32,201 bases of DNA from Gracilibacteraceae bacterium (GTDB lineage Bacteria > Bacillota > Clostridia > Lutisporales > Lutisporaceae), in NCBI GenBank assembly GCA_012519325.1, contig JAAYQK010000151.1:1-32201 (forward strand). The letters run 5' to 3'. Shown here piece after piece: positions 4,651 through 32,201 of this stretch (positions are counted from its first letter, which is position 1; each line of letters starts with the position of its first letter). Position numbers and translations under genes: made by a program. The notes under the pieces were generated by a model. The model was not told where the DNA came from. It did not search any database and saw only the letters and a list, made by a program, of their open reading frames with translations.

Positions 4651-6191
4651 TTATTCCCCCTCTCCATTCAAAGGAACAATCAAAAAAATACGGCAGCCTT
4701 TCTCCTGTGCGGATTTTATATTAAACTTTGCAGATATTTCCGATGCACGTTCCCTCATAATATTTAGCCCGTATCTGTTTGTCAAATTAGTCTCAATATC
4801 AAAGCCCTTCCCGTCATCCTCCACAGTAACACATAACTGTTCCTTTGATATTTTAAATCCAATATATAATTATCAGCTTCCGAATGCTTCCTTATATTAT
4901 TCAGGGCTTCCCTTACAATATTCAATGTATTGATTCGAATATCCGGTCTCAGTCCATCTCCTGTAAATCCGGAGGGAATATCCAATTTTACCTTTAGCCC
5001 TGATTGCTCCTCAAAGCTATTAATATCCTTAAGCAATCCCCCCATGAAATCCTTCCTCAATGCTTCCGTGTTCCTTATGCTCCGGATATATTCCCTTATA
5101 TCATTGTGTGCTTCCTGAGAAACATTAACCAACTTGTCCAGCTTTTGAGATACTATGTCAATACCTGCATTCGCAAGCTCCTTTCTTATTCCCTGAGCTT
5201 GAAGGTTAATGAATCCCAGCACCTGCCCCAGGTCGTCATGTAAATCCCTGGCAAGCCGTTCCCTCTCCTCTGTGACTGCAAGTTTCCACTGCTGCTCCAT
5301 ATATCGCTGCTGTTCCTGCTTTTTCTCTGTAATATCATATACCACAATAAGTCTCCCGGAAGGTATACCTCTATTGTCATTAAGGGCAAAAAGGGACGCC
5401 TCATAAATCATTGGCATTCCATCCTTATGAATAACAAATTCGCAATGGGTTATATCTCCTTCTGTGCAAGCTTTTAAAAGCGCAGGTACTTTTTCGCTCA
5501 CTTCTTCAACCTTTACATCGTCAAAATTTCGAATATAATAACCTGTAATTTTTCTGAAAGCCGGATTCATGTCCAACACCCTATTCTGCATATCCAATAC
5601 CATGATCCCAGCATCCATATTCTCAATAACCGCAGCCCGTGCCACGGGAACAAGATCAAAAAGCTTGTACCTGAAAATTCCCAAAGCAATAATGATACCT
5701 GCCGGTCCGAAAAAAATAGGGGTAATATCAAATCGCTTCACCGGCCAAGCCCCGAAATATATAAAACATTCGGAATTACAAAAAGGGTCATTCCGACTAA
5801 CAATGACACTGCCTGCTTCCTGTAAACCGTATTCTGAAAAAATACTGTCCTTATCAGAAGTATCCATGCCAGTATATTCAGAGAATGTGAATATAAGGCA
5901 CGGATATAAAAAGCAGGTCCATATTTTTTATCAATAACCGGAAAGGAACCGCTGTAATCCATGTGCATATCATATCTTATCAATCCGTGCAGTCCATCTG
6001 TCCACACAAGAATCAAAATGATTGTCGGAATAACCGCAATCCACATTATTTTTCTGCACAAACATACTGAGTATAAAGCTTAAGGCGCCCTTTGAATTTC
6101 TCCGCTTCAGAATTACATATATCCCAAGGGACAATGAAATAAATGCAGAAACAACAAGGGGCCATATATATGGTATGCATTGTATCTGCAT
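4651..6191 (-). pseudogene. Sensor histidine kinase (7TM-PAS-HisKA_3-HATPase), broken by frameshifts and a deletion
   Basis: Three minus-strand frames together spell one kinase. It starts at 6191 behind GAGGTG with MQIQCIPYIWPLVVSAFISL. It then jumps near 6055-6065 into another frame beginning RKIMWIAVIPTIIL. Compared with this 7TM kinase family about 50 residues of membrane region are missing there. Near 5741-5746 a missing C shifts the frame between SGLG and PVKRFDIT. The third part carries a PAS domain (VLDMQNRVLDMNPAFRKITG) and the HisKA_3 phospho-acceptor RDLHDDLGQ. At 4844-4846 a missing A throws the ATPase part into yet another frame, where VEDDGKGFD and RYGLNIMRERA can be read up to the stop at 4651. 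As sequenced it cannot make a working kinase. Either it is a pseudogene or the assembly has indels. The adjoining response regulator is the natural partner. Confidence 0.82.
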
Positions 6192-26515: not shown

Positions 26516-27085
26516 TTATTCAAAGATGATAATCCCTTCTTTCATGGATTTTATGACAGCCAGGGACTCTATACGAACTCCCTTCTGCATCAGCGCTTCT
26601 CTTCCCTTTTGAAAGCCCTTTTCTATAACGATTCCGACACCTGCAACTCTGGCACCGGCTTGACGTACTATATCCACCAACCCTGAAGCAGCTTTGCCGT
26701 TAGCCAGAAAATCATCAATTATGAGAACATTATCCTCTGGTGAAATGTATTTCTTGGAAACGCGGATGTTATAGCTCTTCTGCTTTGTAAATGAGTACAC
26801 TTCGCTCTGGTAAGTATCCGAATCAAGATTCAATGCCTCATACTTTTTTGCAAAAACCACAGGCACACTGAAATACTGTGCAGCTATGCATGCCACAGCG
26901 ATTCCCGATGCCTCCACCGTCAATATTCTGCTTATATTCTCATCGCTGAATCTTTTCTTAAATTCTTTTCCCATCTCATTGAACAACTCTATGTCCAGCT
27001 GATGGTTAAGAAAGCTGTCCACCTTGACAATACTATCTCCGATAACTATTGCGTCCTTTAATATTCTATTCTTCAGAAGCTCCAT
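26516..27085 (-). CDS. xpt: Xanthine phosphoribosyltransferase
   Basis: The 189-residue enzyme joins xanthine to PRPP to give XMP, the salvage step toward GMP. It matches Bacillus-type Xpt through its length: MELLKNRILKDA, VKVDSFLNHQLD near 25, VEASGIAVACIAAQYFSVPVVFAKK (base-binding side), and the PRPP motif VLIIDDFLANGKAASG. I begin at the ATG 27085 with GGGAG eight bases ahead; an in-frame TTG six codons upstream is less likely. A purine riboswitch of the guanine/xanthine class with its terminator lies right upstream, the classic arrangement for this gene. Confidence 0.96.
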   Translation of the reverse strand: MELLKNRILKDAIVIGDSIVKVDSFLNHQLDIELFNEMGKEFKKRFSDENISRILTVEASGIAVACIAAQYFSVPVVFAKKYEALNLDSDTYQSEVYSFTKQKSYNIRVSKKYISPEDNVLIIDDFLANGKAASGLVDIVRQAGARVAGVGIVIEKGFQKGREALMQKGVRIESLAVIKSMKEGIIIFE

Positions 27086-27161
27086 TATTCTCCCTTTCTT
27101 CAATGACTGTCCGTATATTATGCGTGTGAAGCTTGTACCGATTAAGAAAAGCCCTAAATAA

Positions 27162-27194
27162 AAACCCCCAGAATTAATTTATATCTGGGAGTTT
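27162..27194 (-). terminator. Riboswitch-controlled intrinsic terminator upstream of xpt
   Basis: On the minus strand AAACTCCCAGA (27184-27194) pairs with TCTGGGGGTTT (27162-27172), one mismatch, with an 11-base loop. A T-rich tract follows (27155-27164). Its 5' arm can alternatively pair with the 3' strand of riboswitch stem P1, giving an antiterminator (27187-27203 with 27282-27300). Confidence 0.85.
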
Positions 27195-27293
27195 ATATGT
27201 AGATTTGAATTTTTGGTGTACTTTATAACCGCTGACATGGAATATCCGCAGCATAATAGTGAAACACGAAAAATCAGAAAATCTAATATATAA

Positions 27294-27368
27294 ACAACCC
27301 GTAGTCCGGTAATTCAAGGTTACCTGGTAGAAACACTCAGACCATATTTCTAAGCATATACAAGTTGT
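27294..27368 (-). promoter_or_regulatory. Purine riboswitch aptamer (guanine/xanthine class)
   Basis: Read on the minus strand, it shows the complete purine fold. P1 is ACAACTTGTA (27359-27368) with TACGGGTTGT (27294-27303). P2 is CTTAG with CTGAG around loop AAATATGGT. J2/3 is GTTTCTACC. P3 is GGTAA with TTACC around loop CCTTGAA, and J3/1 is GGACTA. The GG of loop 2 and the CC of loop 3 allow the kissing contact. The specificity base in J3/1 is C, which marks the guanine/xanthine/hypoxanthine class rather than the adenine class. It sits 208 bases before the xpt start and controls a terminator; ligand binding should switch expression off. Confidence 0.93.
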
Positions 27369-27563
27369 CAGCTTCATGCAGAAACTACTATTAGATCATA
27401 TTCAGCCGGCAGCAAAACCATAATATTTGCAGCAGTAGAACATAGAGTACAGGCACTATTTTGACTGCTTATTTTTCTTAATTCTTACACATAGTATTCA
27501 CATCTACATAATATTTTACATTAAAAGCCTTATGAATGCAACAAGCTAATTGCTTAATGCCGC
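27369..27563. other. Intergenic region between the hydroxylase operon and the riboswitch
   Basis: AT-rich, about 195 bases. It must contain the promoter for the riboswitch transcript unless that is made by read-through. The best -10-like hexamers on the minus strand (TATTAT near 27423, TATGAT near 27397) lack good -35 partners. An imperfect GCAGT/ACTGC inverted repeat (about 27430-27470) might end the hydroxylase transcript. No coding frame is supported. Confidence 0.4.
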
Positions 27564-31246: not shown

Positions 31247-32201
31247 CTAAAAGCGCTTCCATACTTCACTGGCCAACTCGCGGCTTCTTGCCATCATTCT
31301 CTCTTCATCGATATCAACCAGTTTTCTGTCTTCCATCAGTACCCTGCCGTTAACAATTGTTGTATCAACAAAACGTCCGTTTATTCCAAACAATAGATGA
31401 CTGTTAATATTATCTTTGTTTATCTCAGTAGGAGGATTGTAGTCGACTATTATTATATCTGCCAGTGCCCCTTCCTTTAAAATTCCTACCTGTCCGTCAA
31501 TAAACCTCTCAACTATTTTCCTGTTGTTTATAAACAGCATCTCAGGAATCTCACCCCAAGCAACATTTGAATCCCCTTTTACGTGCTTGTGAATTATGTT
31601 TCCAACCTTATAGGATTCCATCATGTCTGCCGTATATCCGTCAGTCCCCAATCCCAGCAGTATTCTCTTTTCGAACATTTCCAGCACCGGTGAAGCACCT
31701 ACTGCATTTCCCATGTTGGATTCGGGGTTATGAACGACTATAGTGTCTTTTTCCTTCAGCATATCCATTTCCTTTTCAGAAATATGGATGCAGTGTACTG
31801 CTATGGTTTTACTCCCCAGCACTCCTGCATCATGCCACCTTTCTATTACTCCTTTCCCGTACTTTGCTCTTGAATCCTCCAAATCTTCAATTCCCTCGGC
31901 ACAATGTACATGAAACCCTGTATTCAGCCCGCTTATAGCATTCAGGCATTTATCCAGGGTTTTTTCCGAAATGGTCATGGAGGCATGAAGTCCGAACATG
32001 CCTTTAAGCATATCATCGTTTTTCTTGCTGCAGTATTTGATGAATTCTACATTTTCTGCAATACCTTCCTCAGCTATCTTTTCCCCGTCACGATCTGAAG
32101 TCTCATAGCACAGATTGCTTCGAATACCTATGTATTCTGCTGCCTCTGCTATTTTGAACAGGCTTCCTGTTATGGCATACGAGCTTGCATGATGGTCAAT
32201 A
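31247..32201 (-). CDS. ssnA: SsnA-like amidohydrolase (5' end outside window)
   Basis: The frame runs off the right edge, leaving about 317 C-terminal residues. It is an amidohydrolase of the guanine-deaminase/SsnA kind. IDHHAS is at the window edge, then NLCYETSDRDG, FHVHCAEG (metal-binding histidines), IAVHCIHISE, VVHNPESNMGNAVGASPV, and GLGTDGYTADMMESYK (metal-binding aspartate). It ends with the small beta domain carrying VDTTIVNGRVLM. In enterobacteria SsnA is encoded next to a xanthine-dehydrogenase-like enzyme, as here. It is the first visible gene of the hydroxylase operon. Guanine or another aminopurine is the likely substrate, by inference from neighbours. Confidence 0.88.
   Translation of the reverse strand, partial: IDHHASSYAITGSLFKIAEAAEYIGIRSNLCYETSDRDGEKIAEEGIAENVEFIKYCSKKNDDMLKGMFGLHASMTISEKTLDKCLNAISGLNTGFHVHCAEGIEDLEDSRAKYGKGVIERWHDAGVLGSKTIAVHCIHISEKEMDMLKEKDTIVVHNPESNMGNAVGASPVLEMFEKRILLGLGTDGYTADMMESYKVGNIIHKHVKGDSNVAWGEIPEMLFINNRKIVERFIDGQVGILKEGALADIIIVDYNPPTEINKDNINSHLLFGINGRFVDTTIVNGRVLMEDRKLVDIDEERMMARSRELASEVWKRF

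Follow-up and report, generated by a model that had tools for sequence, protein, structure and literature searches.

A probable guanine-I riboswitch with a long predicted hairpin between its predicted switch strands, upstream of xpt in a Gracilibacteraceae bacterium

The leader described here lies on the minus strand of contig JAAYQK010000151.1 (assembly GCA_012519325.1) from a Gracilibacteraceae bacterium; contig positions 1–32,201 were analysed and are referred to as the window. Upstream of the riboswitch, and likewise on the minus strand, are xdhC, xdhB, xdhA and part of ssnA. Downstream is xpt, encoding xanthine phosphoribosyltransferase (NF006671 280.6 bits, against a cut-off of 177), in agreement with the original prediction, made from the letters alone, of a riboswitch ahead of xpt. 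The next gene, the first of an ABC transporter cluster, encodes a BMP-family substrate-binding protein, and the cluster is likely to be co-transcribed with xpt. The five other genomes whose xpt has 79% identity or more (G001, G002, G004, G012 and G019) keep the xpt–BMP order. The SsnA-type aminohydrolase ORF (31247–32011) is the last gene toward the contig end and matches its profile from position 188–189 on, the first half of the protein not being in the ORF. Elsewhere in the window (4782–6061, minus strand), a sensor-kinase-like protein appears to be split over the overlapping frames 5738–6061 and 4782–5867, possibly by a frameshift or an assembly error. The features of the leader and the genes behind it are listed below.

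27513–27541, minus strand: likely promoter, assigned by eye, with -35 TTGCAT (27541–27536), a 17-base spacer and -10 TAAAAT (27518–27513)
27282–27383, minus strand: purine (guanine-I type) riboswitch aptamer, RF00167 76.2 bits over model positions 1–102 of 102, with U51 and a presumed C74
27295–27367, minus strand: P1 helix (27367–27359 with 27303–27295) and the part that it encloses, from folding
27279–27300, minus strand: antiterminator 5′ strand, including most of the P1 3′ strand; first 15 bases identical in four of four homologous leaders
27199–27287, minus strand: hairpin separating the switch strands, predicted for either state, -23.1 kcal/mol, z -4.26
27187–27206, minus strand: antiterminator 3′ strand, overlapping the terminator 5′ arm at 27187–27193; CAUAUAAACUCCC identical in four of four homologous leaders
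27163–27193, minus strand: intrinsic terminator stem-loop followed by a U-rich tail, 10 pairs, 11-base loop, -14.0 kcal/mol
26516–27085, minus strand: xpt, 189 amino acids from ATG, NF006671 280.6 bits, TIGR01744 245.7 bits
25226–26359, minus strand: BMP-family substrate-binding protein, first gene of the ABC transporter cluster, NF047927 72.1 bits, below the equivalog cut-off

The promoter falls below the threshold of the consensus scan. The aptamer match (27383–27282, minus strand) has an E-value of 4.3e-12 for the window and lies well above the gathering score of RF00167, which is 37; it is the sole match to this family in the 2.66-Mb assembly, all of which was scanned. In the Rfam alignment J3/1 reads GACUAC, and its specificity base is a C, which we take to be C74. 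The covariance-model search with the purine riboswitch family, proposed as a check when the leader was first noticed, thus returns the complete aptamer and the C at the specificity position that had been predicted.

Most of the P1 3′ strand is also part of a competing duplex. This comprises GGG (27300–27298) with CCC (27189–27187), GUUUAUAU (27295–27288) with AUAUAAAC (27198–27191), and UAGAUUU (27285–27279) with AAAUCUA (27206–27200), which gives 18 pairs in all, interrupted by two small interior loops (positions were counted along the sequence). About 15 pairs with small bulges had been expected, and 15 of the 18 lie inside the two segments originally proposed to pair. The duplex has an energy of -16.5 kcal/mol, which is equalled by 13 of 1,000 shuffles of one strand and 4 of 1,000 shuffles of both; taken alone, it exceeds chance only moderately, given the A+T richness of the sequence. 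In the terminator stem, 27193–27184 is paired with 27172–27163. The whole of 27187–27203 had been assigned to the terminator 5′ arm; this holds for 27187–27193, and the rest belongs to the antiterminator only. The terminator was not reported by a simple consensus scan of the window, because its 11-base loop exceeds the 3–8 bases that the scan accepts.

Folding without ligand places these helices in competition. In an RNA that stops just short of the terminator 3′ arm, the antiterminator form (-50.8 kcal/mol) is favoured over the P1 form (-47.6 kcal/mol), and for the full-length RNA, P1 with the terminator reaches -63.6 kcal/mol against -54.8 kcal/mol for the forced antiterminator. Folding of the growing chain proceeds from P1 to the antiterminator (ends at 27183–27171) and then to P1 with the terminator (27165 onward). 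The competing pairing sought by folding is accordingly the best structure until the terminator is complete and is replaced by P1 and the terminator thereafter. In prediction, the leader thus has the composition of a transcriptional OFF platform, namely an intrinsic terminator and a mutually exclusive antiterminator that uses the P1 3′ strand. The proposed logic, in which ligand-free RNA would antiterminate and ligand-bound RNA would terminate, is consistent with both sequence and folding.

Four homologous leaders with a long gap between aptamer and terminator were compared (the window, G003:C10, G012:C165 and G019:C301). All 28 bases of the switch strands agree among them; identity is 53–73% in the stretch that lies between and 83–99% in the aptamer part. 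Frozen switch strands around a variable middle would be expected of bases that take part in competing helices; covariation cannot test the strands themselves, because they are invariant in the four homologues. Ligand-free folding prefers the antiterminator in three of these leaders; in the fourth, G012, P1 is favoured by 1.0 kcal/mol. In G019:C301 (L139, 1781–1837), the terminator stem (-30.2 kcal/mol) takes in the 3′ strand of the antiterminator along its full length, and one and the same switch is thus balanced very differently from one relative to another.

In the window, about 100 bases separate P1 from the terminator; this gap had been described as roughly 90 bases and longer than in many xpt leaders, and of this the unusual length stands and the figure is revised. 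The gap is occupied by the hairpin at 27287–27199, for which none of 200 shuffles is equally stable. Its lowest seven pairs are the UAGAUUU/AAAUCUA pairs also counted in the antiterminator, and it is present in both forced states. When the hairpin is forbidden, the advantage of the antiterminator in the window drops from 3.2 to 1.1 kcal/mol, and across all four long-gap leaders it tilts the balance by 1.5–2.1 kcal/mol toward the antiterminator. Since it lowers the cost of the antiterminator in this way, the hairpin looks like a nucleating arm, which would set the competing strands side by side. It is clearly beyond chance in two of the four leaders (z -4.26 and -3.82) and not in the other two (-1.55 and -1.52), and of 28 consensus pairs one has a two-sided change, in an alignment of four sequences only. 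Smaller stem-loops seem, by eye, to occupy the same place in five short-gap leaders of other Clostridia.

Gap length was compared over a wider set of leaders. A scan of genome contigs with xpt yielded 80 loci, all of which were scanned against Rfam; RF00167 is present in 17, directly before xpt in 16 (L032–L038, L040–L043, L053, L056, L057, L074 and L085) and elsewhere in one (L087). These 17 loci, the window and eight further leaders of the family make 26 entries, L032 being the same record as G012:C165. Four entries with doubtful terminator picks, over-extended or of an unexpected type (L033, L036, L040 and L053), were left out together with L087, which has no terminator pick and an aptamer that is not next to xpt; this leaves 21 entries, or 20 distinct leaders, including G009:C41, whose terminator pick is over-extended by a few bases. 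Only three of the 20 have a gap longer than the 100 bases of the window (G019:C301 with 114, measured to its extended terminator, G012:C165 with 128 and G003:C10 with 131), and the remaining 16 have gaps of 28–83 bases. A covariance model built from the four long leaders (R1) added no new leader, either in a sample of 391 genomes of the class or in 22 genomes of the family: its matches, in 3 of 391 and 4 of 22 genomes, are all the model's own sequences, G019 being missed under the strict filters of the class search and found in the family search. Weak matches on the reverse strand at the same positions in G012, G003 and G019 reflect the complementary sequence of the long-gap hairpin.

The genomes also differ in the purine repressor PurR. 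Scored by TIGR01743 above its cut-off, PurR was found in none of the six genomes of the window's genus g1 (G000–G005), in all five of genus g2 and in 10 of 22 in the whole family; drafts may miss the gene, but completeness is 95–99% for G000, G003 and G005. A PurBox-like inverted pair (CGAA cores, with spacing as given in PMC8789054) was scored before the aptamer in 27 leaders (26 distinct), each against 200 shuffles. At most 14 of 200 shuffles are as good in 14 entries (13 distinct), including G012 with its L032 copy and G019:C138; weaker pairs are present in G009:C41 (20 of 200), G019:C301 (37) and L035 (44), and the window (90), G003:C10 (131) and the remaining eight leaders are at chance. 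For L038 and G019:C301 the best-scoring pair differs from the one marked by eye. At the matching place in G003:C10, the G012 sequence can still be recognised in altered form, and the PurBox-like sites of the sister genus g2 look decayed in the window and in G003:C10.

From the computed aptamer, helices, conservation and gene order, we infer that a guanine-I riboswitch very probably switches off xpt, and probably also the ABC transporter, through intrinsic termination at high guanine levels. In the absence of ligand, the P1 3′ strand and the bases that follow would pair with the strand that otherwise becomes the terminator 5′ arm, and transcription would read through. Bound guanine, the presumed ligand, would hold P1 during the short antiterminator stage; the antiterminator would then be unable to invade, and the terminator would form in vivo. 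In both states the gap hairpin may act kinetically by bringing the competing strands next to each other, which would reduce the switch to a local exchange of about 11 pairs.

The location of the aptamer between xdhC and xpt, whose products both act on xanthine, could suggest a guanine-class aptamer with altered specificity, for xanthine (xanthine-II), 2′-deoxyguanosine or adenine. The gene xpt is commonly controlled by ordinary guanine riboswitches, such as that of Bacillus subtilis xpt-pbuX. Xanthine-II riboswitches associate with xanthine dehydrogenase genes and are marked by junction insertions and a U51G change, according to PMC9295807, from which the U51 numbering is also taken. Neither mark is found in the Rfam alignment of the window aptamer: J2/3 reads UUUCUA(C) with U51 kept, and J2/3 and J3/1 align ungapped and free of insertions. 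With the C in J3/1 and a purine-salvage gene (xpt) downstream, these are the characters of the guanine-I group, and altered specificity, which we consider hardly credible, was rejected on the two bases and the intact junctions.

A different reading would make the gap stretch a second ligand-binding domain, in tandem with the guanine aptamer, and the terminator would then respond to two signals. The stretch has structure (z -4.26) and is kept in four genomes of two genera, three of the four leaders resemble each other in an internal loop around GUGUU/AUAAU, and tandem guanine–PRPP leaders, in which a guanine aptamer is followed by structured RNA before the terminator as in the window, exist (PMC5912903). 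In such tandems a ykkC subtype 2b aptamer begins 5–7 bases after the guanine P1, and no PRPP or ykkC-type match was found in 27080–27560 up to an E-value of 5. That the gap contains a second aptamer of a known class, or another RNA family, was likewise rejected, no Rfam family reaching its gathering score; the weak, chance-level matches (ohsC, His_leader, trpB, MIR862_2 and manA-II) fall well short of their cut-offs, and each of them takes in the terminator. Moreover, the stretch is 86 bases in the window against 113–118 in the others, to which it is 53–56% identical, and the shared internal loop is not kept in it. It sits in the loop of the antiterminator, where a plain hairpin suffices and where the short-gap relatives seem, by eye, to have small ones. 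We therefore judge a two-signal terminator very unlikely. The same low probability applies to its broader form, in which the stretch, found only in two genera in these searches, would be a second domain (a ligand sensor, protein site or pausing site) that complements or replaces the lost PurR in a two-input leader of an undescribed kind.

Read as a single-input guanine-I switch with a terminator platform, its ligand and termination predicted, the leader is a new example of its type and ordinary as a riboswitch. It shares its aptamer architecture, specificity C and xpt with the B. subtilis xpt-pbuX guanine riboswitch (guanine-I, RF00167), from which it differs in that a long hairpin occupies its gap of about 100 bases and a BMP-type ABC transporter follows xpt in place of pbuX. 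The predicted OFF logic of terminator against antiterminator is also the same, as that logic is set out in PMC10907184. In the B. subtilis yxjA purine riboswitch, the competition of P1, central helix and terminator was worked out experimentally (PMC9756952); the window shares this competition in prediction, and the mismatches in the central helix, whereas yxjA controls a nucleoside transporter, and the predicted central helix of the window is extended by the long hairpin. The platform hairpin of the Escherichia coli lysC riboswitch forms in the bound and unbound states and favours the antiterminator, like the hairpin predicted here (PMC10907184); there the ligand is lysine and the role of the hairpin was tested, whereas the window belongs to the purine class and its hairpin is assigned this role by folding. 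Covariation models of the full aptamer and platform of the purine riboswitch were published earlier, according to PMC13273304. Minor additions are the long hairpin, the relatives that lack the switch and the apparent decay of PurBoxes.

The locus takes different forms in the relatives of the window. G001, G002 and G004, of the same genus, share the xdhC–xpt–BMP order with an xpt 88–91% identical to that of the window, with only about 140 bases between xdhC and xpt; these loci have no riboswitch, and no Rfam match was found in them up to an E-value of 1. TAAAAT with a 17-base spacer is present in all five xdhC-linked leaders, with a -35 of TTGCAT in G000, G001, G002 and G004 and TTGTAT in G003, and thus G001, G002 and G004 have the promoter without the switch. 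Their leaders of about 90 bases (L143, L142 and L144, respectively) can form a hairpin without an Rfam family, which might be an operator or leader hairpin; both sides of its base (UAAUGUA/UACAUUA in G001, GAUAUGU/ACAUAUC in G004) seem variable. In G001:C125 and G002:C109 (L018 and L019), the only purine riboswitch of each genome lies before a gene that reads, by eye, like IMP dehydrogenase (guaB); the whole-assembly RF00167 scan found no such second riboswitch in the window's assembly. In G003, a long-gap riboswitch lies between xdhC and the BMP gene without xpt, and xpt (64% identical) is located elsewhere behind its own riboswitch. Ahead of the BMP gene in G003:C10 (L137), a MELL-like start that soon runs into a stop, seen by eye, may be a decayed remnant of xpt.

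In trees of four concatenated proteins from seven genomes, G003 groups with G012 and G019, and the window is placed next to G001, G002 and G004; the grouping of the last three is weak (bootstrap 61; corresponding FastTree split 0.741). With this arrangement, a single loss of the switch in the common ancestor of G001, G002 and G004 is the simplest reading, although not proven, the alternative being a gain in the lineage of the window.

One genus thus includes a locus with the switch and xpt (the window), one with the switch and no adjoining xpt (G003), and others with xpt and its promoter but no switch (G001, G002 and G004). The invariant switch strands around a fast-changing hairpin illustrate how an expression platform evolves, and the set of loci offers a natural comparison for what a guanine riboswitch costs or gains.
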